NCBI GenBank assembly: GCA_007129945.1 | Contig: SKUN01000114.1 | Coordinates: 1-39,156 of the forward strand | Source: Bacteroidales bacterium | Lineage (GTDB): Bacteria > Bacteroidota > Bacteroidia > Bacteroidales > UBA7960 | DNA: 39,156 nucleotides | Direction of reading: 5' to 3' | Shown: piece after piece, positions 9,844 through 36,712 of the stretch | Layout of the letters: every line of letters starts with the position of its first letter | Position numbering within the stretch: position 1 is the first letter of the stretch | Notes under the pieces: model-generated | The model's database searches: none | What the model was told of the DNA's origin: nothing | Seen by the model: only the letters and a program-made list of their open reading frames with translations | Position numbers and translations under genes: made by a program

Positions 9844-10392
9844 ATGGAAAAAAATCAACCGGAAGATATCACTGTTTCCGCGGCCGTACTCGAAATGCTT
9901 ACCGTGGCCAATGAATATTGCCTGTTTTACGAAAAAGCAGACGGCTATGCCATGCAGGAAATCCTGGATTATTTTCACAAAATAGCCCCGCTTATCTACC
10001 TGAAAGGCTCACTGCTTCCGGGTGTTCAGCCGGAAGATCCCGGGCCGGGCGACCGTTTCGTAACGGAAGAACAATGGGAGGGCATATTCAAAACACTTCG
10101 GGAAAAATTCGGTAATAATGATGTCTATTATACACACGACCACAACCATGATTCTGTTGAATCCAGCTTGTCGGATAACATGGCCGACATCTACCAGGAC
10201 ATGAAGGATTTTGTGATGCTGTACCAGAAAAACACCGTCACTGCCCGCCAACAGGCCATTATCCTAATCAGAGACCTCTACAAATCAAGGTGGGGCGTTG
10301 CTTTACTGAACGGACTTACCGCCGTACACCAGATTATTTTCCACGAAAACATCAGTCCCGACCTTTTACAGGACGAAGGCGGATGGCTTTAG
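9844..10392 (+). CDS. DUF5063-like protein of unknown function
   Basis: This is a 182-residue soluble, acidic, mostly helical protein with no signal peptide or membrane segment. The layout resembles the DUF5063 family of Bacteroidota: an N-terminal helical block (VSAAVLEMLTVANEYCLFYE), then the middle stretch IAPLIYLKGSLLP. It is followed by a conserved aspartate-rich DMKDFVMLYQK segment near 122 and a WGVALLNGLTAVHQ motif near 152. That assignment is from memory and not certain. The function is unknown. The next gene, a TlpA-like lipoprotein, starts 31 bases downstream on the same strand, so they may share a transcript. A short His/Asp cluster (THDHNHDS, about residues 97-104) is a possible metal-binding patch. 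Confidence 0.75.
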   Translation: MEKNQPEDITVSAAVLEMLTVANEYCLFYEKADGYAMQEILDYFHKIAPLIYLKGSLLPGVQPEDPGPGDRFVTEEQWEGIFKTLREKFGNNDVYYTHDHNHDSVESSLSDNMADIYQDMKDFVMLYQKNTVTARQQAIILIRDLYKSRWGVALLNGLTAVHQIIFHENISPDLLQDEGGWL

Positions 10393-10423
10393 TAACAGCT
10401 GTATACCTAACCTCAACAACAAG

Positions 10424-11848
10424 ATGAGACACCTGATCCTTCTTTTTGCCCTGCTCATGTTTGCCACCGGATGCTTTTCCCGGACCGGGCACCGGATTAC
10501 TGTGCGGTTCAAAGAAACGCAGGACACGGAATGCTACCTGGCCTATCATTTTGGTAACCAGCAGTACCTGAAAGATACGGCTTATGTCAACCGCCAGGGG
10601 GTGGCCGTTTTTGAAGGTGAAGAAAGCCTGGATCCGGGGATCTACCTTGTGGTTCTTTCCGATGAGCGGAACATGGAAGTCATTGTGGATGCCAATCAAC
10701 ATTTTGAGATCCATGTTGATCCGGATGATTTTATTGGGACCGCCGAATTTACCGGATCTCCCGATAACGAGGTTTTTTATGAATACCTGAACTTCATCCG
10801 CGAAAAAAACCGGCAACGCCAGGAAATTGAAGCAGCTCTTCAATCACCGGATACCGGCCAGGAGAAAAGGCCCGGATTACAGCAGGAACTCAGGCAGATG
10901 GACGAGGAGGTCCGGGAGTTGCAAAAAAAGATCATTGCAGATGACCCGGAAGGCCTGCTCTCCAGAGTACTGATGGTTCAGAGAGACCCGGAACTGCCCG
11001 AGCCTCCGATCAGGGCAGACGGCAGTTACGACAGGGAAGCCATGTACAACATCTATACCCGGCACTTCTTCGACAATATTGATTTTTCAGACCAGCGACT
11101 GCTCTACACACCGGCCTACCACGGCAGACTACGGTTGTTCTTCAACAACGTACTGGCGCAGCATCCCGACTCAATCATTCAGGCAGCTGACCGGGTACTT
11201 GAAAAATCCATGGCCAGTGAAGAAGTTTTTCGTTACACCCTGTGGTTTTTGACCAATCACGCGCAAAGTTCCATGGTAATGGGAGCAGATGCCGTGTTTG
11301 TTCACCTTGTGGACAATTACTATCAAACGGGAGAAGCATCCTGGGTTGACGAAGAAAGGCTGAAAACCCTCGCCGGAAGGGCAGAAGAGCTAAGGCCATT
11401 GCTGCTGGGGAATGTAGCGCCCGACATTGAGGTATACGATCCGGCCGGAAACCCGGTCACCCTCCATGAAGTGGAAGCCGATTACCTGATCCTTTATTTT
11501 TGGGAATCGGACTGCCCATACTGCAAAGAAGCTTATCCGGTACTGGATGAAACCGTCAGGCAGCTTGAAGAAACGGACGTAAAAGTTTTTGCCGTGAATA
11601 CGGAGCCCGGCAGCGAGGAGTGGCTCAATGCACTTGAGGAATACAATGCCTTCAAAGAATACCAGGATAACTGGATCCATGTTAACGATACAGCCAACAC
11701 CTCAGGGTTCCTTGACAAATACCAGATCTACAGCATTCCCAAAATATTCATCCTTGACAGCGGGAAGAAGATCCGGGCCAAACAGATCAGTGCAGAGCAG
11801 GCAGGCAACTTCATCCGCCAGGACATGCAGGAAAGAAGCAGTCAGTAA
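10424..11848 (+). CDS. Thioredoxin-like (TlpA/ResA-type) thiol-disulfide oxidoreductase lipoprotein
   Basis: This is a 474-residue envelope protein. The N-terminus MRHLILLFALLMFATGC is a lipoprotein signal with lipid-modified Cys at residue 17. An N-terminal beta-rich region (about 25-110) looks like DUF4369, followed by a charged helical linker (about 125-165, EALQ/ELRQMDEEVRELQKK). A middle helical region precedes a C-terminal thioredoxin fold with the active site WESDCPYCKEAYP (cysteines about 365 and 368) and the cis-proline segment YQIYSIPKIFILD. It probably reduces or isomerises disulfides, or matures cytochromes, in the periplasm. Its client is not shown by context. It converges with the DUF4301 gene, with 4 bases between stops. 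A second gene of this architecture lies at 16230-17408. Confidence 0.88.
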   Translation: MRHLILLFALLMFATGCFSRTGHRITVRFKETQDTECYLAYHFGNQQYLKDTAYVNRQGVAVFEGEESLDPGIYLVVLSDERNMEVIVDANQHFEIHVDPDDFIGTAEFTGSPDNEVFYEYLNFIREKNRQRQEIEAALQSPDTGQEKRPGLQQELRQMDEEVRELQKKIIADDPEGLLSRVLMVQRDPELPEPPIRADGSYDREAMYNIYTRHFFDNIDFSDQRLLYTPAYHGRLRLFFNNVLAQHPDSIIQAADRVLEKSMASEEVFRYTLWFLTNHAQSSMVMGADAVFVHLVDNYYQTGEASWVDEERLKTLAGRAEELRPLLLGNVAPDIEVYDPAGNPVTLHEVEADYLILYFWESDCPYCKEAYPVLDETVRQLEETDVKVFAVNTEPGSEEWLNALEEYNAFKEYQDNWIHVNDTANTSGFLDKYQIYSIPKIFILDSGKKIRAKQISAEQAGNFIRQDMQERSSQ

Positions 11849-11852
11849 TCAC

Positions 11853-13394
11853 TTATTCACCCTGATGCCCGTCGCGTAACAGATCATTGATGGTTTTCAC
11901 CGGGTTAAAAGTGCCCAGGGGCACCTCCACGAATACCGTATTCCACCGGGCCATGGCCCCATTCCATAAACCGGGCCGTTCCAGGGCCTTCAGGTCGCGA
12001 CCGTCTTTTGATTTATAGCTGATGAAACCTGTTTCCGGATCGATATATTCTTTGAGATCAAAAGCCTGCCCTTTATAGTCTTTCACAGCACATACCAGGT
12101 CAACCGGGTTAAAATGGGTGGCCCTTTCCACGGCAGCTTCCTGCTGCGGATCTTTTCTGTTGATCTGTGACATCTCTACAATCTGCAATGACAGGCTGCC
12201 ATCCTCAGGATCTTTCACCCAGAAAGGCCCGCCGCCAGGCTCACCTTCATTCTTGACCATGCCGCATACCCGTAAAGGACGGTTCAGTTTATCATGCAAC
12301 ACCTTCTGGCCTTCCTCCGGATCTTCCGGAAGAAATGACCGGTGAATGTTCAGACTGTTCACGGCAAAATCAACGACCTGGGTATATTCCAGTTCACTCA
12401 GGCGTCCTTTGTCAATCCGATGCAGCCAGGCAAAGGCCTCTTTCTGAAGCTCCAGCATGAGACCGCCAAGCACTTTTTTGTACAGCAGGGTCTCCGGCTT
12501 CAGCCTGTCAGGTACCACATTATCAATATTTTTTATAAAGATCAGGTCATCTTCATGTTCATTGAGGTTGTCGATCAGGGCACCATGGCCACCGGGACGA
12601 AATACCAGCGAACCGTCTTTCTCACGGAACGGCAGGTTGTCTTTGCCGACCGCAATGGTATCAGTAGAAGGCTTTTGAACCGAATGCGCAATCTCGAAGT
12701 TCACACCAAAGTTCTCCTCAAACCAGGGTTGAACCTTCTTCAATCGCTCCCTGAAAGGCTGGATGTGTTCGGGTGAAAGGGTAAAATGCAGCCGCACTTT
12801 CTTCTGAATATCACAGGCATAATCCGCTCCTTCTACCATGTGCTCTTCCAATGGAGTCCGGTAACTTTTGCCATACCTGTGGAAAGCTATCAGTGCCTTC
12901 GGCAGGCTTGCATAGTCCAGACCATAATCAAACAGCAGATAGTCCAGTACAGGCAGATAATTCCGTTGTTCCAGCAAATGCTCCGCAACCAGGTCATCTT
13001 TGTCAAGAGCCAGTGCAAGGTCATCCCAGAAAGCAAAATCACTGATCCGCTCAAAAAACATCCTGGCTTCCGGCTTGGACGAGAGCAGGCTTTCAACCTC
13101 CACACCCGCCGCAATCAAGTCCCTCCAAACAAACACATCCCTGAACATCCGGGTGGCCGCCCCGCTGGCGGGAATGAATTTGGTAATACGGTAACCGCCG
13201 GCTTCCTTACTGAAGTGATCAGCCAGCCATTTCACTTTCCGGTCCTGCACCCGGAGAATGCCGTCACCCACAGTGGCAGGGCGGTCTAAATCCAAAGGCG
13301 GAAATCCTTTTTTAAAATGATCTATTTGCCTGAGGAAACCCTCTTTGGTGATCCCCTTCTCGTTGAGTTGTTGAATGTCCTTTTCGTTCAGCAT
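11853..13394 (-). CDS. DUF4301 family protein, possible nucleotidyltransferase fold
   Basis: This 513-residue cytoplasmic protein matches the DUF4301 family of Bacteroidota by its start (LNEKDIQQLNEKGI), the GDGILRV motif near residue 43 and overall length. Function is not established. I see features resembling UDP-sugar pyrophosphorylases. FIPASGAATRMFRD (73-86) sits where a glycine-rich nucleotide loop would. GKDNLPFRE (about 250) is followed by FRPGGHGALIDNLN (about 264-277) and IFIKNIDNVV (about 284-293), which parallel the PPGHGD and N-DN segments of that fold. The match is by eye only. It is transcribed alone from a TATATTTG -7 element at 13422-13429, divergent from the sensor kinase gene. 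Confidence 0.85.
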   Translation of the reverse strand: MLNEKDIQQLNEKGITKEGFLRQIDHFKKGFPPLDLDRPATVGDGILRVQDRKVKWLADHFSKEAGGYRITKFIPASGAATRMFRDVFVWRDLIAAGVEVESLLSSKPEARMFFERISDFAFWDDLALALDKDDLVAEHLLEQRNYLPVLDYLLFDYGLDYASLPKALIAFHRYGKSYRTPLEEHMVEGADYACDIQKKVRLHFTLSPEHIQPFRERLKKVQPWFEENFGVNFEIAHSVQKPSTDTIAVGKDNLPFREKDGSLVFRPGGHGALIDNLNEHEDDLIFIKNIDNVVPDRLKPETLLYKKVLGGLMLELQKEAFAWLHRIDKGRLSELEYTQVVDFAVNSLNIHRSFLPEDPEEGQKVLHDKLNRPLRVCGMVKNEGEPGGGPFWVKDPEDGSLSLQIVEMSQINRKDPQQEAAVERATHFNPVDLVCAVKDYKGQAFDLKEYIDPETGFISYKSKDGRDLKALERPGLWNGAMARWNTVFVEVPLGTFNPVKTINDLLRDGHQGE

Positions 13395-26511: not shown

Positions 26512-27114
26512 TTATTCACGAATCCCTTTGATATAATCCAGATAGGCTGACCGCCGGTTCAGGTTGTGGTACCATTGCCCGTGATCAAAATCCACCAGTT
26601 TTACCCGGGCGTGGGCAAACAAGTCGATAATACGGCGCCGGTCGTTATCCAGCAATGTTTTAATGGCAGCGGTCACCGACTTCCTGTACACCGCGTACAA
26701 GGGTTCATATTTGTCACCCTTACTCACCGGCATCACAATATCCGCTTCGTCAGAAAGGCTGATCATCTCATGGATCAAACCAGGGTTCATTTCAGGGATG
26801 TCGCAGGCAGTTACAAAATTCACGTCACTGTGTGATGCAAGCAGGCAGGAATAGATTCCCATCAGGGGGCCTTTCCCTGCATCCAGGTCGGGCACCACCC
26901 TGCAATTAAGAAATTCATATTTTTCGCTGCTTCCGGCTCCGATGATGATTTCATCAAAATCGCTCTCCAGCTGACGCTTGATATGGGCAATAAGGGGCTC
27001 CCCCTTTCTGTCAAGCATCCCCTTATCGGCACCTCCCATGCGGGAGCCCTTACCGCCGGCCAGGATAACGGCAGAGGCGTTGTACGTATGCTTCTTTTGC
27101 CCATCTGTATTCAT
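26512..27114 (-). CDS. mobA: MobA-like molybdenum cofactor guanylyltransferase
   Basis: This is a 200-residue member of the NTP_transf_3 group. The nucleotide-binding AVILAGGKGSRMGGADKGML (about 15-34) is the MobA signature. Next come the PLIAHIKRQLE segment, DLDAGKGPLMGIYSCL (about 91-106) with the GPL motif, and the metal-binding TACDIPEMNP (about 116-125). MobA attaches GMP from GTP to molybdopterin to make the guanine dinucleotide cofactor used by, for example, formate dehydrogenases. No other molybdopterin gene is in the window. It lies divergent from hypF, so it is probably a separate unit. A related nucleotidyltransferase with another substrate cannot be excluded. Confidence 0.85.
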   Translation of the reverse strand: MNTDGQKKHTYNASAVILAGGKGSRMGGADKGMLDRKGEPLIAHIKRQLESDFDEIIIGAGSSEKYEFLNCRVVPDLDAGKGPLMGIYSCLLASHSDVNFVTACDIPEMNPGLIHEMISLSDEADIVMPVSKGDKYEPLYAVYRKSVTAAIKTLLDNDRRRIIDLFAHARVKLVDFDHGQWYHNLNRRSAYLDYIKGIRE

Positions 27115-27138: not shown

Positions 27139-27276
27139 TATTCTTAAAAAACCGGAGATTCAGTACACTGTGGTTCAAGCGACAAAACAAGCCGAACCTG
27201 CATCCGGAATGTGGCGGAATGCAAGGTCAGACTGCAGCGCACCAAAAAAACAGGGCATACCAGGTTTTGTTTGAAA

Positions 27277-29559
27277 ATGACTGTAAAATTACACACATTA
27301 TACAACACTTTCCGCATTCAGGTTCAGGGAAGGGTGCAGGGGGTCGGTTTCCGACCGTTTATATACCGTCTGGCAAGTGAGCTCAAGCTCAACGGCCAGG
27401 TGGAGAACCGCAACGACGGCGTACTCATCCTGCTGAACTGCCAAAACGGTGAACTGGAAAAGTTCGTTGACCAACTGCGGGCATTGGCCCCTCCGGCATC
27501 ATTCATCGATTCCATCCGCACCGAACAAGTAGGTCACATTCCTTTTGAAGGTTTTAAAATTGTAAAGAGCAGCTCCGTTTCCGATACGGTTACGGAAGTC
27601 AGCCCGGACATCGCCGTATGCCCCGAATGCCTGGAAGATATGAAAACCCAGGCGAACCGTATCGATTACCCCTTTGTCAACTGTACCAACTGCGGGCCGC
27701 GATTCACCATTATACAGGACCTGCCTTACGACCGGGCCAAAACCACCATGGCGCCCTTTGAGATGTGCCCTGAGTGTCACAAAGAATACACTGATATTTT
27801 CGACCGGCGATTCCACGCCCAACCCGTGGCATGTGTCCGGTGTGGTCCCTCCTATCGCCTGCATACTGCCGGCGGGGATATCACCGACCCGCAGGAGGTC
27901 GTCGAACACACAGCCCGCTTGCTGGCAAACAAAGGAATTGTGGCGATCAAAGGGCTGGGGGGCTTTTTTATCGCCTGCGATCCGCTTTGTGCGGATACGG
28001 TTACCCGGCTCAGGCAACTGAAAAGCCGCGAAGGAAAACCCTTTGCCGTCATGTTTCGCGACACGGAAACCCTGCGGCAGTTCGCACATACCAGCCAACA
28101 GGAGGAAGCCAGCCTGCAGTCACTCAAGCGCCCCATCGTGCTCCTCAAAGACAAGGGAAAGCTTGCCCCGTCGGTCAACATGGGGTTCAATACTATCGGG
28201 GCCATGCTCCCTTACATGCCGCTGCATCACCTGCTGTTCCAACAATCCAGGCTTCCGGCCATGGTACTTACCAGCGGCAACATTTCCGATGAACCCATTA
28301 TTACAGACAACGATGAAGCTGTGAAGGTGTTGGGAAGAATCTGCGATGCGGTACTGACCTACAACAGAGAGATCCATAACCGGACCGACGATTCAGTGGT
28401 CCGTGTGATCCGGAAAAAAGAAAGGGTTTTCAGACGCTCCAGGGGCTATGCACCCATCCCTGTCAAGGTGAGCCGGCAGGTGGAGGGGATCCTGGCCACA
28501 GGCGCCGAACTGGTTAACTGCTTCTGTATCGGAAAGGGCAACCAGGCTTTGCTCAGCCAGCATATCGGTGACCTGAAAAACATGGAAACCTACAACTTTT
28601 TCACAGAGTCCATCGACAAGTACAAACAGCTTTTCCGCTTTGAACCGGCACTGATCGCTGCCGATTTGCATCCAAACTACCTGTCATCCCGGTATGCGGA
28701 AGACCATGACCTTCCGGTGGTACACATTCAGCATCACCATGCCCACATTGCCTCCTGTATGGCTCAGCACAGTCTGGATGAAAAGGTGATCGGCGTGGCC
28801 TTTGACGGCACTGGTTACGGCGATGACGGGCATATCTGGGGCAGCGAATTCATGGTGTGCGACTTCAACGACTATCAAAGGATCACCCATTTTGACTATA
28901 TGCAAATGCCCGGGGGCGATAAGGTAACCGGGGAACCCTGGCGTATGGGCGTTTCCCTGTTGTACAACACCTATGGCTGGGATTTTCACCGCCCGGACCC
29001 GGATTTCTTAAAAGGCATCGACAAGCAGCAGATAGACATTTTGTGCCAGGCCATGGACGAAGGCATCAACACACCATTATCGTCAAGTGCCGGAAGGCTG
29101 TTTGACGGGGTGAGTGCCATGATCAACCTGTGTACCCACAGCCGCTTTCATGCTGAAGCCCCCATGCGCCTGGAGTCGGTGATCGATGAAAGCATTACGG
29201 ATACCTACCCTTTCCATGCAGGAAAAACCATATCTTTCGGGCCGACAATTGACAACATCCTTTATGACATGGAAGAACGGCAGCCGGCTTCAGTCATTTC
29301 TGCCCGCTTCCACAATACCATTGTGAATGCAGTTGAGCAGACCGTCCGGAGAATCAGCGACGAGTACGGCCTGCACAAAGTGATCTTGTCGGGAGGTACA
29401 TTCCAGAATAAGTACCTGGGTGAAAAGCTGGAAACCCGCTTGCTGAAGGCAGGCTTCGAGGTCTATTCCCATGGCAGCGTCCCCGCCAATGACGGGGGAA
29501 TCGCCCTGGGTCAATTAATGATCGCTGCAGCAAAAAGAAACAAGATGAATAACCAATAA
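27277..29559 (+). CDS. hypF: Carbamoyltransferase HypF (hydrogenase maturation)
   Basis: HypF turns carbamoyl phosphate and ATP into carbamoyl-AMP and passes the carbamoyl group to the C-terminal Cys of HypE, starting synthesis of the CN ligands of the [NiFe] site. All parts are present: acylphosphatase domain (RIQVQGRVQGVGFRPFIYRL, 13-32) and zinc-finger region with CPECLEDM, CTNCGP, CPECHKE and CVRCGP (about 114-190). A YrdC-like domain follows (KGLGGFFIACD, SREGKPFAVMFRD, LTSGNISDEPI), then a Kae1-like domain (HHHAHIASCM, VAFDGTGYGDDG, LSGGTFQN). I choose the ATG at 27277 (760 residues), since the frame extending to a GTG at 27211 adds 22 unconserved residues. First gene of the hyp operon, 10 bases before hypC. 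Confidence 0.96.
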   Translation: MTVKLHTLYNTFRIQVQGRVQGVGFRPFIYRLASELKLNGQVENRNDGVLILLNCQNGELEKFVDQLRALAPPASFIDSIRTEQVGHIPFEGFKIVKSSSVSDTVTEVSPDIAVCPECLEDMKTQANRIDYPFVNCTNCGPRFTIIQDLPYDRAKTTMAPFEMCPECHKEYTDIFDRRFHAQPVACVRCGPSYRLHTAGGDITDPQEVVEHTARLLANKGIVAIKGLGGFFIACDPLCADTVTRLRQLKSREGKPFAVMFRDTETLRQFAHTSQQEEASLQSLKRPIVLLKDKGKLAPSVNMGFNTIGAMLPYMPLHHLLFQQSRLPAMVLTSGNISDEPIITDNDEAVKVLGRICDAVLTYNREIHNRTDDSVVRVIRKKERVFRRSRGYAPIPVKVSRQVEGILATGAELVNCFCIGKGNQALLSQHIGDLKNMETYNFFTESIDKYKQLFRFEPALIAADLHPNYLSSRYAEDHDLPVVHIQHHHAHIASCMAQHSLDEKVIGVAFDGTGYGDDGHIWGSEFMVCDFNDYQRITHFDYMQMPGGDKVTGEPWRMGVSLLYNTYGWDFHRPDPDFLKGIDKQQIDILCQAMDEGINTPLSSSAGRLFDGVSAMINLCTHSRFHAEAPMRLESVIDESITDTYPFHAGKTISFGPTIDNILYDMEERQPASVISARFHNTIVNAVEQTVRRISDEYGLHKVILSGGTFQNKYLGEKLETRLLKAGFEVYSHGSVPANDGGIALGQLMIAAAKRNKMNNQ

Positions 29560-29569
29560 AATAATTTTT

Positions 29570-29806
29570 ATGTGTCTTAGCATTCCCGGAAAAATCATAT
29601 CCATTGACGGCGACAAAGCCATTGTCTCTGTGGGCGGTACAGAATCAGCAACCTCACTGCAACTGCTGGATGATGCAGTTGTGGGCGACTACGTACTTAT
29701 CCACACCGGTTTCGCCATCCAAAAGATCAGCGAAGAGGAAGCCGCCGAAACACTCCGGTTATTCAACGAACTGGAGGAATTCAATAAGCAGGAAGAGGAA
29801 GAATGA
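29570..29806 (+). CDS. hypC: Hydrogenase maturation chaperone HypC
   Basis: This 78-residue protein opens with MCLSIPGKI, the HypC signature; Cys2 holds the iron during assembly of the Fe(CN)2CO group with HypD and later docks to the large subunit precursor HoxH. The core (GDYVLIHTGFAIQKISEEEA, about 41-60) is conserved. The tail is acidic (EEFNKQEEEE). The last 4 bases overlap the hypD start, so translation of the two is coupled. There is no second HypC/HybG-type gene in the window. Confidence 0.95.
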   Translation: MCLSIPGKIISIDGDKAIVSVGGTESATSLQLLDDAVVGDYVLIHTGFAIQKISEEEAAETLRLFNELEEFNKQEEEE

Positions 29807-30882
29807 AATACATCGATGAATACCGAAACAAGGAGCTGGTAAAAAACCTGGTGAACAAAATCGGGGAGATTGCCCACAGGGAAGTCTCCCTGATGGAGGT
29901 CTGCGGGGGTCATACCTGGGCCATCCAGAAGTTCGGGATCCCTTCCCTGCTGCCTGAAAACGTACGGTTGCTTTCCGGGCCCGGTTGCCCCGTCTGCGTC
30001 ACAAGTAAACGCTTCATCGACCAGGCAGTGGCTTACAGCCGGATGGACGATGTGATCATCACCACCTTCGGCGACCTGATCAGGGTACCGGGATCCACCT
30101 CTTCACTGGATAAGGAAAAAAGCAAAGGGGCCGACGTACGCATGGTGTATTCCGTGATCGATGCCCTGGACATTGCGAAAAAACACCCGGACAAAAAGGT
30201 GATCTTCCTGGGGATCGGGTTTGAAACGACCGCACCGGGTACGGCAGCAGGCATTAAAAATGCCGCCGAACAGCAGCTGGACAATTTTTTCGTACTGAGT
30301 TCACACAAAGTGATGCCCCCGGCCATGGGTGCCCTGATCGATGAAGGGGTGAAGATCGACGGATACATTGCACCCGGGCACGTCAGCACCATTACCGGAT
30401 CGGGGATCTATGCCGATATTCCTGAAAAATACGGGGTAGCCTGCGTCATTTCCGGGTTTGAACCTGTGGACATCCTGCAATCAGTGTACATGCTGCTGCA
30501 ACAGATCAACAAGCAGGATTACAAAGTAGAGATCCAGTACAGCCGTACCGTCAAACCCGAAGGAAACCCCTTGGCGCTTAAGATCATGAACGAGGTGTTT
30601 GAGCCGGTAAACGACTGGTGGCGGGGGTTCGGGATGCTGCCTGAGAGCGGACTGGGCATCCGGGGTGATTTTGCCCGTTTTGATGCCGACCGGATGATCG
30701 CCGTGGAAGTGGAAGAAACAGCAGATGAAAAAGGCTGTATCTGCGGGGAGATCCTCAAGGGACTGAAAAAGCCCCACGACTGCAGGTTGTTCGGAAAAGT
30801 TTGCAACACCACAAACCCTGTAGGTGCCTGCATGGTATCCCATGAAGGTGCCTGTAATGCTTACTTCAGATTCAACGCATAA
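29803..30882 (+). CDS. hypD: Hydrogenase maturation protein HypD
   Basis: HypD is the Fe-S scaffold on which, together with HypC, the iron receives its two cyanides and one carbonyl. In this 359-residue protein the conserved motifs are EVCGGHTWAI (Cys34), GPGCPVCVT (Cys62 and Cys65) and FGDLIRVPGS. GFETTAPGTAAGI (about 144-156) and the Cys-rich C-terminus that ligates a [4Fe-4S] cluster (GCICGEILKG, PHDCRLFGKVC, GACMVSHEGAC) complete the set. Its start overlaps hypC by 4 bases and its stop overlaps the hypE start by one base. Length and all key cysteines are normal, so it should be functional. Confidence 0.97.
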   Translation: MKYIDEYRNKELVKNLVNKIGEIAHREVSLMEVCGGHTWAIQKFGIPSLLPENVRLLSGPGCPVCVTSKRFIDQAVAYSRMDDVIITTFGDLIRVPGSTSSLDKEKSKGADVRMVYSVIDALDIAKKHPDKKVIFLGIGFETTAPGTAAGIKNAAEQQLDNFFVLSSHKVMPPAMGALIDEGVKIDGYIAPGHVSTITGSGIYADIPEKYGVACVISGFEPVDILQSVYMLLQQINKQDYKVEIQYSRTVKPEGNPLALKIMNEVFEPVNDWWRGFGMLPESGLGIRGDFARFDADRMIAVEVEETADEKGCICGEILKGLKKPHDCRLFGKVCNTTNPVGACMVSHEGACNAYFRFNA

Positions 30883-31895
30883 TGGAAAAAAATATACTAC
30901 TCGGACACGGAAGCGGAGGCCGTCTGATGCACTCCCTGATCCGCGACCTGTTTATCAAATACTTTGACAATCCTTTCCTGGCACAGCAAAGCGACTCGGC
31001 CATTTTAGACCTTCCCCCCGGAAAAACCGCATTTACCACCGATTCTTATGTGATCGACCCGGTCTTCTTTCCCGGCGGAGACATCGGAAAGCTGGCCGTC
31101 TGCGGGACGGTAAACGACCTGGCTGTGGCCGGGGCCACCCCGCGCTATATCACAGCCGCATTCATCATTGAGGAAGGCCTGCCGATGGAGGAACTGGAGC
31201 GCATCGTTGCCTCCATGGCCGAAGAAGCGAAAAAAGCCGGGGTGCTGATCGTTACCGGCGACACCAAGGTGGTGAACAAGGGCCAGTGCGACAAACTCTT
31301 CATCAATACCGCCGGCATCGGCGAACTGGAGACGGCCCATGCCCCCATCGGAACCGGGGAACACATAGCGGCGGGAGACAAGATCCTCCTCAACGGCCCC
31401 ATTGCCCAGCACGGCATGGCGATCATGGCGGTAAGGAATTTCGGCAACTTCAATACCAGCATTCAGTCAGACTGCAGCTGCCTCAACCACATGATCCGGG
31501 AGGTACTCGACACCGGCGCCAGGGTGAAATTTATGCGGGATGCCACCAGGGGCGGCCTGGCCACCGTCATGTGCGAAATGGCCACCCAGAGGGGCCTTGG
31601 CGTGGAAGTCAATGAAGAAGATGTGCCTGTGGATGACAATGTGCGCGGGATGTGCGAATTGCTCGGGTTCGATCCTTTTTACGTGGCCAACGAAGGAAAA
31701 CTGGTGATGGTGGTGCACCCGGAAGATGCGGAAATGGTCATCCAGACCATGAAAAACAACCCGCTGGGACGGGATGCAGCAATAATCGGCGAACTGACCG
31801 GGAATCACCCCGGAAAGGCCGCCCTGCAAACCGCCATCGGGGGCAAACGCATCATGGATATGCTGGCCGGAGAACAACTCCCCAGGATCTGCTAG
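30882..31895 (+). CDS. hypE: Hydrogenase maturation protein HypE (thiocarbamate dehydratase)
   Basis: HypE (337 residues) takes the carbamoyl group from HypF on its C-terminal Cys and uses ATP to dehydrate it to thiocyanate, the cyanide donor for HypC-HypD. The N-terminus ILLGHGSGGRLMHSLI (5-20) and FTTDSYVIDPVFFPGGDIG (about 48-66) are typical. CGTVNDLAVAGATPRYI (about 70-86) forms the ATP-binding PurM-like domain. The protein ends PRIC, with the essential C-terminal cysteine in place. It starts 1 base inside hypD's stop and precedes hypA by 21 bases. Confidence 0.97.
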   Translation: MEKNILLGHGSGGRLMHSLIRDLFIKYFDNPFLAQQSDSAILDLPPGKTAFTTDSYVIDPVFFPGGDIGKLAVCGTVNDLAVAGATPRYITAAFIIEEGLPMEELERIVASMAEEAKKAGVLIVTGDTKVVNKGQCDKLFINTAGIGELETAHAPIGTGEHIAAGDKILLNGPIAQHGMAIMAVRNFGNFNTSIQSDCSCLNHMIREVLDTGARVKFMRDATRGGLATVMCEMATQRGLGVEVNEEDVPVDDNVRGMCELLGFDPFYVANEGKLVMVVHPEDAEMVIQTMKNNPLGRDAAIIGELTGNHPGKAALQTAIGGKRIMDMLAGEQLPRIC

Positions 31896-31916: not shown

Positions 31917-32258
31917 ATGCATGAGCTATCCATCGTCTCCAATATTTTTGACATTGTTGAAGAAAACGCAGTCAAACACCAGGCCACCATTATCCACGAA
32001 ATTGAAGTGGATGTCGGAGAACTTGCCGGGGTCGAATTTGATGCCCTGGAGTTTGCCCTGGAAAACGCACCGCGAAGCAAGATGCTCAAAGATGCCCGTG
32101 TGATTATCAATAAAGTTCAGCCCACAGCTGAATGCGAGGATTGCCATCACCGCTTCATCACCGTGGAGTATGCCGCTACATGCCCCCGCTGCACTTCAAC
32201 ACGGACAAAGATCATCAGCGGGCATGAATTGAAAATCAAGTCATTCAGAATGGATTAA
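31917..32258 (+). CDS. hypA: Hydrogenase nickel incorporation protein HypA
   Basis: HypA (113 residues) delivers Ni to the hydrogenase large subunit with HypB. The N-terminal MHELSIV carries His2, the nickel ligand. The zinc site uses four cysteines in CEDC (73, 76) and CPRC (89, 92). A purine-rich AAAGGTAAG stretch lies just before the ATG and may help ribosome binding. It is followed by a 65-base gap containing a TAACTTTG element, so hypB may also be transcribed separately. Confidence 0.96.
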   Translation: MHELSIVSNIFDIVEENAVKHQATIIHEIEVDVGELAGVEFDALEFALENAPRSKMLKDARVIINKVQPTAECEDCHHRFITVEYAATCPRCTSTRTKIISGHELKIKSFRMD

Positions 32259-32296: not shown

Positions 32297-32323
32297 TGAC
32301 TAACCTCAAAAAATTTGACCAAT

Positions 32324-33097
32324 ATGTGCGATACCTGCGGCTGCGACCACCCAAACAGCACCACCTTTACCATCCCCGGTCAGGAACACAAACATGACCA
32401 CGCCCATAGCCATGACCACGACCATGATCACGAGCACCCCCGCAGCGGCTCAAAAGAAGTGCAGCTCGGGCAGGACGTACTTTCGCAGAATAACCTGCTG
32501 GCCGAAAGAAACCGTGGTTATTTCGAGGCCAAAAACATCATTGCCCTCAACATGGTCAGTTCACCCGGTTCGGGAAAAACCACCGTGCTTGAAAAAACCA
32601 TTACCGACCTCAAGGCGGCCCACGACTTTTTTGTGATAGAAGGAGATCAGCAGACACTGAACGATGCCAACCGGATCAAGGCAACGGGTGCCCCCGTTAT
32701 CCAGGTGAATACCGGAAACGGCTGCCACCTGGACGCCGATATGATCAACAAATCGGTGAAGCAGCTCGGTGTAACAGAAAACGCCATCCTGGTGATCGAA
32801 AACGTAGGCAATCTGGTCTGCCCTGCCATGTTCGACCTGGGTGAATCGCAGCGGGTGGTGATCATCAGCGTCACCGAGGGGGAAGACAAGCCGCTCAAAT
32901 ACCCCGGCATGTTCCACTCATCCGACATCTGCCTGATCAATAAAACTGACCTGCTTCCCTATGTGGATTTCGACGTGGAAAAAGCCAAAGAATATGCCCT
33001 GCAGGTAAACCACCACCTCCGGTTTTTTGAGATCTCAGCCAAAACAGGTGAAGGAATGGACACCTGGTATGAATGGCTGAATAATTTCAAAAAATAA
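32324..33097 (+). CDS. hypB: Hydrogenase nickel incorporation GTPase HypB, with His-rich nickel store
   Basis: This 257-residue GTPase loads Ni onto HypA and the hydrogenase large subunit. The start is ATG 32324, since it gives MCDTCGC, the N-terminal CxxCxC (Cys2, 5, 7) seen in HypB; the frame otherwise reaches a TTG three codons earlier. Residues 22-38 hold nine histidines in strict alternation (HKHDHAHSHDHDHDHEH), a nickel-binding or storage stretch. The G domain has a P-loop SSPGSGKTT (79-87), NKTD (206-209) and the metal site residues Cys134, His135 and Cys166. It is followed 32 bases later by nikR. Confidence 0.96.
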   Translation: MCDTCGCDHPNSTTFTIPGQEHKHDHAHSHDHDHDHEHPRSGSKEVQLGQDVLSQNNLLAERNRGYFEAKNIIALNMVSSPGSGKTTVLEKTITDLKAAHDFFVIEGDQQTLNDANRIKATGAPVIQVNTGNGCHLDADMINKSVKQLGVTENAILVIENVGNLVCPAMFDLGESQRVVIISVTEGEDKPLKYPGMFHSSDICLINKTDLLPYVDFDVEKAKEYALQVNHHLRFFEISAKTGEGMDTWYEWLNNFKK

Positions 33098-33129: not shown

Positions 33130-33531
33130 ATGAATATTCGCAGATTTGGTGTTTCCGTGGAAGAAAACATTCTCAGTGCCCTGGACACTTACGTGAAAAA
33201 GCACAGCTTTCCGAACCGTTCGCGGGCCATTCGCCACCTGATCAAAAGTACCCTGGTGAACGAGAAAGTGGATGAAAACAAAATGGTTGCCGGTGCCATT
33301 GTGATTGTGTATGACCATCATCACAGGGAACTGAACAGTAAACTGATGCATGTACAGCACGAGTACCACGACGCCATTCTGTCCACCCAGCACGTTCACC
33401 TGGAGCATGACCTTTGCCTGGAAACCATTGCCGTAAAAGGTAAATCCAAAACCCTGCAGGAGCTTGCAGACAGGATCATCGGCACCAAAGGGATCAAGCA
33501 CGGTAAGCTGGTCATGACAGATATTGAATAA
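33130..33531 (+). CDS. nikR: Nickel-responsive transcriptional regulator NikR
   Basis: This 133-residue ribbon-helix-helix regulator has an N-terminal DNA-binding part (IRRFGVSVEENILSALDTYV, then NRSRAIRHLIK). The C-terminal ACT-like nickel domain keeps all four high-affinity Ni ligands of E. coli NikR: His77, His88, His90 and Cys96 (motif QHVHLEHDLCLETIAVKG). Ni-bound NikR normally represses nickel uptake genes. Here it sits inside the hydrogenase maturation operon, 32 bases after hypB, so it may control this operon, the hox genes, or an importer elsewhere. No nickel transporter is in the window. An NikR operator was not recognised in the visible gaps. Confidence 0.95.
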   Translation: MNIRRFGVSVEENILSALDTYVKKHSFPNRSRAIRHLIKSTLVNEKVDENKMVAGAIVIVYDHHHRELNSKLMHVQHEYHDAILSTQHVHLEHDLCLETIAVKGKSKTLQELADRIIGTKGIKHGKLVMTDIE

Positions 33532-33573: not shown

Positions 33574-34695
33574 ATGGAACAATACACGTTCTCACCCGTG
33601 GGGGTCATTCGCAATCATATCAACGAACCGGACGATTACCGCAAAATCAAGGGAAAGCCCAGCATTATTGAGATTTTCGATGAGTATTCCGGGGCACTTC
33701 TGGGCATCGAATCCAATGATTACCTGGACATCATTTTCCATTTTCACCAGTCCACCCCTGCCCTTCAAACCGCCACCCACACCAACCCGGGGGTGCTTCG
33801 CGGAGTATTTGGCAGCCGGAGCCGGAAACGACCCAACCTTATCGGAAGTACCACGGTAAAACTGCTGGAGCGTAAAGGAAACAGCCTGGTGGTAGAGGGG
33901 CTGGATGCGATCAGCGGCACCCCCGTGCTGGATATTAAAAACTGCGACACCTCGATGTTTGCCTATGAACAGGATCAAAACCCGATCCACCAGGGGAAAC
34001 TGAAAAGCAACCCGCGCATCGACATCCGCAACGAAATATATGCCCGCCGCACGGAGTCCCTTATGATCAAGGCCGGGCAGATCCACGGACATTATTGCCC
34101 CGGGCTGGCCCTGGGCATCATGGCAGCCACACATGCAATGAACCATCTGGAGGCAGAGAGCGATGGCATGGAAGATTTGCTGGCCATCACCGAAACCAAC
34201 AACTGTTTTTCTGACGGGGTGCAGTTTGTTACAGGATGCACTTTCGGGAATAATGCGCTGATATTCAATGATATCGGAAAAACCGCCTTCACACTCACCC
34301 GCCGCAACGGCAAGGGAGTACGGGTGGCCACCCGCCCGGAATCCCGGCAGGTGATTCAGGAGGCCTTCCCTGATTTCGGGGAATTGTACAAAAAAGTGGT
34401 GGATGAACAGGACCATTCACCCGAAATGGTGAGCGCTTACAAAAAGAAAGCACTGGATCGCTCGTTCGGCACCCTGGGCCTGGATTTTGACAAATTGTTC
34501 AAGTTAGAAGAAGTGGATATTGAGATCCCGGACTATGCAAAGATCCACGAGAGTGTAATCTGCGACCGTTGCGGGGAAAGCATCATGAAAACCCGTGCCG
34601 TGAACACGACAGACGACAACTGGCGCTGCCTCCCATGCGGGGAGTACCCCCGTAATACACTGGACGGCAATGGCATTCATTGCCATGAAACATAG
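33574..34695 (+). CDS. TrmO(TsaA)-FmdE fusion protein with C-terminal zinc ribbon, function unknown
   Basis: This 373-residue protein joins three parts. Residues about 5-135 look like the TrmO/TsaA fold (UPF0066), with FSPVGVIRN, GVFGSRSRKRPNLIGSTTVKLL and VEGLDAISGTPVLDIKNC. TrmO uses S-adenosylmethionine to methylate t6A37 of tRNA. Residues about 165-290 look like FmdE, named after a formylmethanofuran dehydrogenase operon, with GHYCPGLALG, CFSDGVQFVTGCTFGNNAL and GKTAFTLTRRNGKGVRV. The C-terminus has a zinc ribbon made by CDRCG (about 329) and CLPCG (about 352). It lies 42 bases after nikR at the end of the hyp operon, which hints at a role in metal or hydrogenase cofactor handling. That is inference; the substrate of either domain is not known. 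Confidence 0.85.
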   Translation: MEQYTFSPVGVIRNHINEPDDYRKIKGKPSIIEIFDEYSGALLGIESNDYLDIIFHFHQSTPALQTATHTNPGVLRGVFGSRSRKRPNLIGSTTVKLLERKGNSLVVEGLDAISGTPVLDIKNCDTSMFAYEQDQNPIHQGKLKSNPRIDIRNEIYARRTESLMIKAGQIHGHYCPGLALGIMAATHAMNHLEAESDGMEDLLAITETNNCFSDGVQFVTGCTFGNNALIFNDIGKTAFTLTRRNGKGVRVATRPESRQVIQEAFPDFGELYKKVVDEQDHSPEMVSAYKKKALDRSFGTLGLDFDKLFKLEEVDIEIPDYAKIHESVICDRCGESIMKTRAVNTTDDNWRCLPCGEYPRNTLDGNGIHCHET

Positions 34696-34717: not shown

Positions 34718-35188
34718 TCACGAATCATTTCTCCTAACTTGCTTAAAAAAATCCTTCAGGTAAGCGAAAGCGGCATGCATGTTTTCCGCTGCTTTCGGGG
34801 TCAGCTCTTCCTTAAAGTCGTATTCATAGCCCCTGATGTGCAGCACACATGCCTTCGGACTTTTATTGTAAATTTTCTGACAAAGATCCACCACGTAGGA
34901 AACTGACACCGCATGCATGGTGAATTCGATCCGGGCATCATCAGGCTCCACCGTTTCCAGCTTGAAATTTTCCAGATCCTCCACCACACTGGCATCCACA
35001 AAGACAACAGTATCGTACCCGGCAATCTCTGCCGCATCCTCGATATTCAGCTGGTAATTGGTATCCGTGAACATATGGGTCAGGTTTTGTTCCCTGATCC
35101 AGGCATCACACAGTTCAATAAAGCGGGGACCCAGGCCGTCATCCTGACGTCCCGGGTTTCCATACCCGTAGATCAGTATTTTTTGCAT
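34718..35188 (-). CDS. Hydrogenase maturation protease (HoxW/HycI type)
   Basis: This 156-residue endopeptidase trims the C-terminal tail of the hydrogenase large subunit after nickel insertion. Nickel-sensing residues are seen as Asp16 or 17 in GYGNPGRQDDGLG (8-20), Asp65 in FVDAS and His92 in MHAVS, as in HycI. The neighbouring hoxH encodes a 24-residue tail after its L2 motif, the likely substrate. It is transcribed in the hox direction but separated from hoxH by a strong hairpin terminator (35211-35241). No consensus promoter is seen in the 47 bases before its ATG, so it may rely on read-through or a weak promoter. Confidence 0.9.
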   Translation of the reverse strand: MQKILIYGYGNPGRQDDGLGPRFIELCDAWIREQNLTHMFTDTNYQLNIEDAAEIAGYDTVVFVDASVVEDLENFKLETVEPDDARIEFTMHAVSVSYVVDLCQKIYNKSPKACVLHIRGYEYDFKEELTPKAAENMHAAFAYLKDFFKQVRRNDS

Positions 35189-35260: not shown

Positions 35261-36712
35261 TTATGATTTGTAGTGATCCAGTTCTTCGTCATCAGGGCCA
35301 TATAGTTTGATGTCCAGGGGCATCTTACCCAGTGCGTGGGTCGCACAACTCAGACAAGGGTCATAAGCCCGGATGGCCACTTCAACCGCATTCTTCATGG
35401 GTTCGGTGATCACCGCCTTGCCCGTCATCATGTTTTTGGACACCATATTCACGGAGCGGTTCATCGGCTCGTTGTTATTGGTGGTGGAAACGATGAGGTT
35501 CGCCATGGTGATCTGATCGTCATCGTTGATCTTATAGTGATGGAAGAGCGTGCCGCGGGGGGCTTCAATCAGGCCGACACCCTCATTGCCCTTCTTCCCT
35601 TTCACCACGAGATCGTCTTTCTGCAGATCCGGATCTTCCAGCAATTCTTTGATCACCTCAGCCGAGTGCAGCAGCTCGATCAGCCGTGCCCAATGGGTAT
35701 GCAGGCAATAATTGTTCGGTTTTCCGTTGGTATGTGCCCTGAATGCTTCAAACTCCTTCTGCGCCTTTGGCGTGGGAATGAAGTCACAGCAATTAAGACG
35801 TGCCAGCGGACCCACACGGTACCAGCCCTTGTCCTTGCCAAGGTGTTTCATGTAGGGGAACTTCATATAGCTCCAGTTCTTCACCTCTTCTTCGATATGC
35901 TTGTAATAATCCTGGTAGTCCACATCATCGAGTACCCTGTTGCCTTCAGAATCCACTGCACGCATCACCCCGTGATAGAAATCCAGTGCACCGTCTTCCC
36001 TGACAAGGCTCAGGTGATTGGATGGGAAGTGGGCAAAGTTGTCCACAAACTCACGGTTTTGCATATAGTAATCCTTAAACAGGTTTACGGCGTCACCTGC
36101 CCATTCGATCATCTTATCCACATTCATCGGGTCATCGCCCTTGAGCAGGAAATCACGTTCTTCGATGCTGAGGTTTTTATTGATACCGCCCGGGATCGCT
36201 CCGGTACCGTGGATCTTCTTCCCGGCGGTAAAATTGATCACTTCCTGACCAAACTTACGCATCAGCACGCCCTGGGTGGCCAGCTCCGGAAACTTCTGGG
36301 CAACTCCGACCACGTTACGTATTGCCGGATCGGCATCGTAACCCAGGAGAAAATCGGGTGAAGAAAGATGGAAAAAATGCAGCGCATGCGACTGGAACAT
36401 CTGCCCGTAGTGCATCAGCCTTCTCATTTTCTCACCGGTGGCGGTCAGTCCTTTGCCGGTTCCTGCGCCCACAATCACGTCAAGGGCCTTCGCAGCAGCC
36501 AGGTGGTGACTTACGGGGCAAATTCCGCAGAGGCGCTGAACAAGCACAGGTGCTTCCCAATAAGGCCTTCCCTGCACAAAACGCTCAAAACCACGGAATT
36601 CCACAATGTGCAGCCGTGTTTGCTGCACGTTCATTTTACTGTCGAGATGAATGGTCACCTTACCGTGACCCTCAACCCGCGTTACAGGTTCTATTGTTAT
36701 TTTTTGTGCCAT
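35261..36712 (-). CDS. hoxH: [NiFe] hydrogenase large subunit HoxH
   Basis: HoxH (483 residues) carries the Ni-Fe active site that oxidises or forms H2. The N-terminal motif RLCGICPVSHH (Cys62, Cys65) and the C-terminal DPCLSCATH (Cys453, Cys456, His459) give the four cysteine ligands. The VSHHLAAAKA continuation is characteristic of the HoxH family. After His459 there are 24 further residues starting ALGKMPLDIK, the extension removed by the maturation protease. It lies 15 bases after hoxY, with AGAGGAAT before the ATG. Together with HoxFUY this points to a bidirectional NAD-linked enzyme of group 3d type. Confidence 0.96.
   Translation of the reverse strand: MAQKITIEPVTRVEGHGKVTIHLDSKMNVQQTRLHIVEFRGFERFVQGRPYWEAPVLVQRLCGICPVSHHLAAAKALDVIVGAGTGKGLTATGEKMRRLMHYGQMFQSHALHFFHLSSPDFLLGYDADPAIRNVVGVAQKFPELATQGVLMRKFGQEVINFTAGKKIHGTGAIPGGINKNLSIEERDFLLKGDDPMNVDKMIEWAGDAVNLFKDYYMQNREFVDNFAHFPSNHLSLVREDGALDFYHGVMRAVDSEGNRVLDDVDYQDYYKHIEEEVKNWSYMKFPYMKHLGKDKGWYRVGPLARLNCCDFIPTPKAQKEFEAFRAHTNGKPNNYCLHTHWARLIELLHSAEVIKELLEDPDLQKDDLVVKGKKGNEGVGLIEAPRGTLFHHYKINDDDQITMANLIVSTTNNNEPMNRSVNMVSKNMMTGKAVITEPMKNAVEVAIRAYDPCLSCATHALGKMPLDIKLYGPDDEELDHYKS

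Follow-up and report, generated by a model that had tools for sequence, protein, structure and literature searches.

A TrmO-like/FmdE/zinc-finger fusion protein with a putative function in nickel acquisition

Introduction

FmdE proteins were named from a methanogen operon and, to our knowledge, have had no settled function since. The 39,156 nucleotides of Bacteroidales DNA analyzed here (the window) contain an FmdE domain fused to a TrmO-like domain and a zinc finger, in a gene that closes a run of hydrogenase maturation genes, which raises the question of what such a protein does there. An initial annotation had proposed a metal-handling or SAM-dependent step linked to the [NiFe] enzyme or, alternatively, a coupling of nickel status to tRNA modification. 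Our analysis indicates that the fusion most likely handles nickel just after its import and does not serve the building of hydrogenase.

The TrmO-FmdE architecture is itself already on record. In Axelrod et al. 2010 (PMC2954224), a fusion of FmdE to UPF0066, which is TrmO_N, is already listed (PF02663+UPF0066), and most FmdE genes are reported to be neighbors of genes for metal-ion transporters. A 2024 survey (PMC11237513) placed the fusion, as archaeal cluster 663.1, in four Methanosarcinales and three Archaeoglobales assemblies and suggested a role around formylmethanofuran dehydrogenase. These fusions have the two-domain architecture and the His/His/Cys/Cys site in common with that of the window, but neither report names nickel import, NikR, LarBCE, Hyp linkage or a bacterial distribution, and our literature search found no paper tying the fusion to nickel or NikR. 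What is new here is the genomic context in nickel uptake.

Domains, fold and active-site residues

The gene and its parts are as follows.

33574-34695, plus strand: TrmO-like/FmdE/zinc-finger fusion gene; ATG start, 373 aa; AlphaFold2 model with a mean pLDDT of 89.9
33643-33939, plus strand: TrmO_N (UPF0066) beta-barrel, residues 24-122, SAM contacts R82, D111 and K122 (Pfam PF01980, fold match to 2nv4, conservation)
34081-34500, plus strand: FmdE domain, residues 170-309, metal ligands H171, H173, C175 and C211 (Pfam PF02663, fold matches to 2gvi and 2glz, ligands invariant in 59 fusions)
34561-34638, plus strand: C-terminal zinc finger C330, C333, C352 and C355 (all four Cys in 58 of 59 homologues; 2gvi match)

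Both Pfam domains score above their curated cut-offs (TrmO_N: E 9.7e-21, 74.6 bits against 26.8; FmdE: E 4.8e-34, 117.7 bits against 22.9), and the initial description of a single frame with TrmO/TsaA-like, FmdE-like and C-terminal zinc ribbon parts is borne out to the exact coordinates. The motifs quoted there, GHYCPGLALG, GCTFG, SGTPVLDIKNC and the CxxC pairs, are all found in the protein, with the zinc-finger cysteines spaced C330-x2-C333 / C352-x2-C355. As full-length homologues with 38-79% identity exist in several phyla, a chance frame is ruled out. In the AlphaFold2 model, for which 59 homologues served as input, the barrel is best matched in fold by 2nv4, which is AF0241 with SAM (Z 17.5, rmsd 2.2, 128 aligned), while the second half resembles the FmdE proteins 2gvi (Z 17.7) and 2glz (Z 15.7), the former match extending to residue 358.

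Assignment of the FmdE metal ligands followed PMC2954224. H171, H173, C175 and C211 are invariant in the alignment of 59 fusions, and the 36 residues separating C175 from C211 equal the Cys19-Cys55 spacing of 2glz, whose His15/His17/Cys19/Cys55 site held mixed Zn/Ni (PMC2954224). For the barrel, the SAM-contact residues were taken from the mapping of AF0241 and E. coli TrmO (PMC4132733). R82 is kept in 58/59 fusions, and D111 and K122 in 59/59, over many phyla, which suggests a working SAM site under selection. Only the Gln contact (Q22 in AF0241, Q25 in E. coli) is not conserved, its column reading E, K, V or Q in the fusions, in a loop whose alignment is uncertain; several standalone Bacteroidota TrmO proteins read MPIQ in this region. 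It had been argued from the SGTPVLDIKNC motif that methylation may be lost. This argument fails, since R82, D111 and K122, the last being the K of LDIKNC, are all kept.

The hyp-nikR-hox neighborhood

The genes surrounding the fusion in the window are listed below.

27211-29559, plus strand: hypF, start uncertain (sequence, operon position; the ORF is 66% identical in G014)
29570-29806, plus strand: hypC (sequence, operon position)
29803-30882, plus strand: hypD (sequence, operon position; 78% in G014)
30882-31895, plus strand: hypE (sequence, operon position; 72% in G014)
31917-32258, plus strand: hypA (sequence; clusters with PF01155 matches)
32315-33097, plus strand: hypB with a His-rich nickel-binding stretch (PF02492, sequence)
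33130-33531, plus strand: nikR, nickel-responsive repressor (PF08753, E 6.7e-32; NF003381, 152.8 bits against a cut-off of 105)
34718-35188, minus strand: hoxW-type hydrogenase maturation protease, convergent with the fusion (TIGR00072, 70.6 bits against a cut-off of 47.45)
35261-36712, minus strand: hoxH, [NiFe]-hydrogenase large subunit (PF00374, E 7.7e-35)

The order is hypF-hypC-hypD-hypE-hypA-hypB-nikR-fusion, so that the fusion lies, as initially annotated, directly behind nikR and the hyp genes as the last gene of a tight run (gaps of -4 to 56 bp; 42 bp from nikR to the fusion). On its 3' side, in convergent orientation, follow hoxW, hoxH, hoxY, hoxU and hoxF. A MobA-like NTP transferase gene (26512-27114, minus strand) is divergent from the hyp run. 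No importer gene is found next to the fusion within the window, the FecBCD-type set being absent there, and neither the window as a whole nor the region 5' of the fusion contains a perfect NikR site.

The slot between nikR and hoxW can be followed in relatives. In the same-genus genome G014, hypF-(hypC)-hypD-hypE-hypA-hypB-nikR, with a NikR-type site before nikR, is followed by a NikMQO-like set and then by hoxW, the hoxH region, hoxY, hoxU and hoxF. The set filling the slot (L148, G014:C51, 5855-9090) encodes first a protein resembling NikM/CbiM and a small exported one, then a CbiQ-like component and an ABC ATPase; NikM and NikQ are names that we assigned from sequence. The slot before hoxW holds permease-ATPase-fusion in G015, L049 and L050, and the fusion alone in the window.

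Gene context of the fusion in relatives

Neighboring genes of the fusion loci were translated, clustered and mapped, and representatives were checked with Pfam and NCBIfam. This confirmed the families Peripla_BP_2, FecCD permease, ABC ATPase, TonB receptor, NikR, HypA, LarC, LarE and LarB near fusions. It should be considered in all of the following counts that the 76 loci, which come from at least seven phyla, are not independent, many being from related Bacteroidota, and that FmdE-domain motifs were the basis of their selection. At least two of the substrate-binding protein (SBP), FecCD permease and ABC ATPase are present in 59/76 loci, and in 52 of the 76 the fusion is directly 3' of the ATPase on the same strand, with a gap of at most 60 bp in 39 of these 52. 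NikR is nearby in 25/76 loci, and at least one nickel gene in 38/76, the kinds including NikR, LarC/E/B, HypA/B and NicO-type. Altogether, 72/76 loci contain a transporter or nickel gene, while the remaining four sequences begin at the fusion and have no upstream side.

The usual order is nikR-TonB receptor-SBP-permease-ATPase-fusion. In two Spirochaetes loci, L105 (8001-11901) and L113 (8001-12016), the run reads SBP-permease-ATPase-fusion-larC-larE-larB, with overlapping or near-touching genes, and connects the importer with the pathway of the nickel-pincer cofactor. A NicO-type transporter gene is located 3' of the fusion in seven loci, where the name is given mainly by sequence appearance; of the members checked, one had no Pfam or NCBIfam match and another a weak nickel/cobalt efflux match. 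In four Balneolota loci (L081, L082, L087 and L098), a gene that by eye is ChrA-like (chromate transporter family) is immediately 5' of the fusion. In L095 (8001-9579), the fusion is accompanied by another FmdE-like ORF, and a further importer set is present as well.

FmdE-only proteins occupy comparable NikR/importer loci (L120-L124). The TrmO domain is therefore dispensable in some loci, and these versions show the FmdE part to be the core. In a Thermoplasmatales-labelled locus (L116, 4475-6380), nikR, a separate FmdE-only gene and an ABC-3-like transporter are found beside the fusion. A split arrangement of fmdE, metM and hemABC is listed for Clostridium (PMC6615313) and was not seen in the one clostridial record examined (L161).

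NikR-type operators

The NikR sites predicted by Rodionov et al. 2004 (PMC545781) have the form GTGTTAC-N13/14-GTAACAC or the reversed GTAACAC-N13/14-GTGTTAC. Our search used the half-site RTRRCAC in any orientation with N13/14, where R for A was allowed after inspection of upstream regions. Over the 1.08 Mb of fusion loci it yielded 40 predicted sites as compared to 0.8 in mononucleotide shuffles, a figure that includes related, non-independent loci. Most predicted sites lie no further than about 70 bp from where nikR, FmdE, the SBP gene or the TonB receptor gene starts, and they occur before fusion operons in Bacteroidota, Spirochaetes and archaea. Across loci L047-L125, the half-sites are mostly direct and not inverted repeats, an arrangement that is not among the forms given in the part of the 2004 paper drawn on here.

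Contig C61 of the window's genome (G000) contains an operon of the FecBCD type (10255-12600 and beyond; L044 6256-9309), directly behind GTAACACGATTAATATAATGGTGTTAC, a consensus palindrome GTAACAC-N13-GTGTTAC. As one palindromic match to the reversed control pattern was likewise obtained in this genome, assignment of the C61 operator is based on the exact consensus and the place before an importer, and not on rarity. The SBP and permease of C61 are closest to fusion-linked Spirochaete sets (43-57%), more than to Bacteroidota sets, and this resemblance suggests that the importer may have been acquired by transfer. It is the probable cognate importer of the window's fusion, the simplest reading being that the two would act in trans.

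Distribution of the fusion

Among 98 genomes of relatives, the window's own included, 6 contain the full fusion, and a phylum-wide sample of 394 genomes contains it in the window's genome and one other (G295), so that the distribution is patchy. A gene of the [NiFe]-hydrogenase family (PF00374) is present in all 6/6 fusion genomes among the 98 relatives, compared to 28/98 overall (P 3.6e-4), and NikR in 4/6 compared to 19/98 (P 0.012). These figures are supporting only, as NuoD-like relatives also match PF00374 and the genomes are related to one another. A wider scan, with one genome per species, returned 80 loci, five of them FmdE-only, from Bacteroidota, Balneolota, Spirochaetota, Bacillota, Methanobacteriota, Promethearchaeota, Thermoplasmatota and a deltaproteobacterium-labelled MAG. 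Balneolota fusions in L075, L076, L081 and L082 are 463-489 aa long, about 90-110 residues more than the others, and the fusion in L051 (5864-6973) has an in-frame stop. No relative was found in the viral contigs searched, and the plasmid records searched gave only single-domain or partial-coverage matches. Two plasmids carry FmdE-only genes, one from Deinococcus near a molybdopterin oxidoreductase (L163, 5971-12513) and one from Citrobacter near arsenic/CDF genes (L159, 6010-12597). FmdE outside the fusion group thus also adjoins nickel-unrelated genes and as a family is not confined to nickel, so that the FmdE site need not be nickel-specific.

Proposed role and mechanism

We consider that the fusion probably handles nickel in the cytosol, as the partner of a FecBCD-type (NiuBDE-like) importer that is under NikR control and takes up nickel, itself probably in the form of a chelate. 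This proposal is based on what could be computed, namely domains and fold, conservation of the SAM and metal residues, linkage in operons and sites of the NikR type. Nickel, probably as a chelate, would enter through the importer, and the incoming Ni(II) would be taken up at the His-His-Cys-Cys site of FmdE, at which we infer nickel rather than another metal. It would then be handed to the cell's own nickel pathway: HypA/HypB and HoxH in the window, LarC elsewhere. The TrmO-like barrel, judging by its conserved contacts, is predicted to bind SAM, and may methylate the imported organic ligand such that the metal is freed to the adjoining FmdE site. Redox-based release, as for iron siderophores, offers no obvious route for nickel. 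The more specific form of the proposal, nickelophore processing in which SAM-dependent methylation lowers the nickel affinity of the chelator and the Ni(II) so released is captured by the fused FmdE site, is put forward tentatively, as a possibility we would not bet on.

Known systems provide partial parallels. That importers of the FecBCD type can transport nickel, with TonB receptors controlled by NikR, is established for Helicobacter NiuBDE in a work (PMC5140060) that also discusses nickel-histidine and possible nickelophores. The FecBCD-type importer, the TonB receptor (FrpB4/NikH) and NikR control are as at the fusion loci. In the part of that work drawn on here, however, no FmdE- or TrmO-like partner is met, whereas the importer at fusion loci typically ends with the fusion. 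The NikMNQO/NikKMLQO systems of delta-proteobacteria (PMC545781) have NikR half-sites and spacing as found here, and a NikMQO-type set fills the G014 slot, but they are of another transporter class and lack a fusion protein.

Alternative explanations

The fusion could instead be a pure nickel chaperone or store, with metal carriage left to FmdE and the TrmO-like barrel serving, without methyl transfer, as a scaffold that binds SAM or a sensor of SAM status. We regard this as rather unlikely: the FmdE-only versions at the NikR/importer loci L120-L124 and the unconserved SAM-contact Gln are in its favor, but the invariant D111 and K122 and the nearly invariant R82 suggest a SAM site that works.

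A second alternative keeps the role and changes the cargo to cobalamin, heme, another tetrapyrrole or another metal, with the NikR linkage being regulatory only. Indeed, the permease and TonB receptor match B12, siderophore and heme models best, although all of these scores are under the cut-offs. Against this, NikR, LarC/E/B, HypA/B and NicO-type genes are co-located with the fusion, NikR sites are in front of such genes and NikMQO-type genes replace the module in G014, so that we find another cargo improbable.

That the fusion is a dedicated [NiFe]-hydrogenase maturation factor would fit its place in the window, after hypB-nikR and beside hoxW-hoxH. The PF00374 genes of all 6/6 fusion genomes among the relatives would fit it as well. 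Across genomes, Hyp/hox genes are beside the fusion at only about 9-10 of the 76 loci, the usual partner being the FecBCD-type importer; Spirochaete loci have larC-E-B instead, further loci have just the transporter, and the G014 slot is occupied by a nickel transporter. The direct link to hydrogenase maturation thus falls and this explanation is highly improbable, while the metal-handling and nickel part of the initial proposal is strongly supported, through uptake of nickel by way of NikR, the FecBCD-type importer and the TonB receptor.

The remaining alternative is a TrmO-type tRNA t6A37 N6-methylase tied to nickel status through FmdE. Like the class VIII methyltransferase TrmO/YaeB/TsaA (PMC4132733), the fusion has an intact UPF0066 barrel with the Arg/Asp/Lys SAM contacts, and no second TrmO was seen in about 20 of the fusion genomes searched. 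In contrast to TrmO, it scores under the equivalog cut-off (TIGR00104, 89.4 bits against 93.25), does not conserve the Gln and appears to lack the DPRxxY domain. The C-terminal DPRxxY is needed in E. coli TrmO, the domain being reportedly confined to gamma/beta-proteobacteria and mammals (PMC4132733); the fusions carry an invariant Pro147-Arg148 after the barrel, whose homology to DPRxxY is uncertain. In a tree with 10 standalone rows and 133 columns, the TrmO domains of the fusions form their own branch apart from the relatives' standalone TrmO-type proteins (support 100/99). The gene context differs as well: when the surroundings of 19 standalone TrmO-type relatives were inspected to 1.5 kb, neither nickel nor importer genes could be recognised. 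With a separate, canonical-looking TrmO also kept in about a dozen fusion genomes, the suggested coupling of nickel status to tRNA modification finds no support and we hold it to be very doubtful indeed.

Implications

Broad genomic evidence moves the role of the fusion from hydrogenase to nickel acquisition, as a putative function. The tie to NikR operators, FecBCD-type importers and larC-E-B/hyp genes in both bacteria and archaea points to a concrete role for FmdE after nickel import, and how nickel leaves an imported chelate is a question that the fusion could answer. If nickelophore processing should prove true, it would be a non-reductive, methylation-driven release of metal, a parallel for nickel to siderophore reductases, and FmdE proteins would thereby gain a defined role for the first time.
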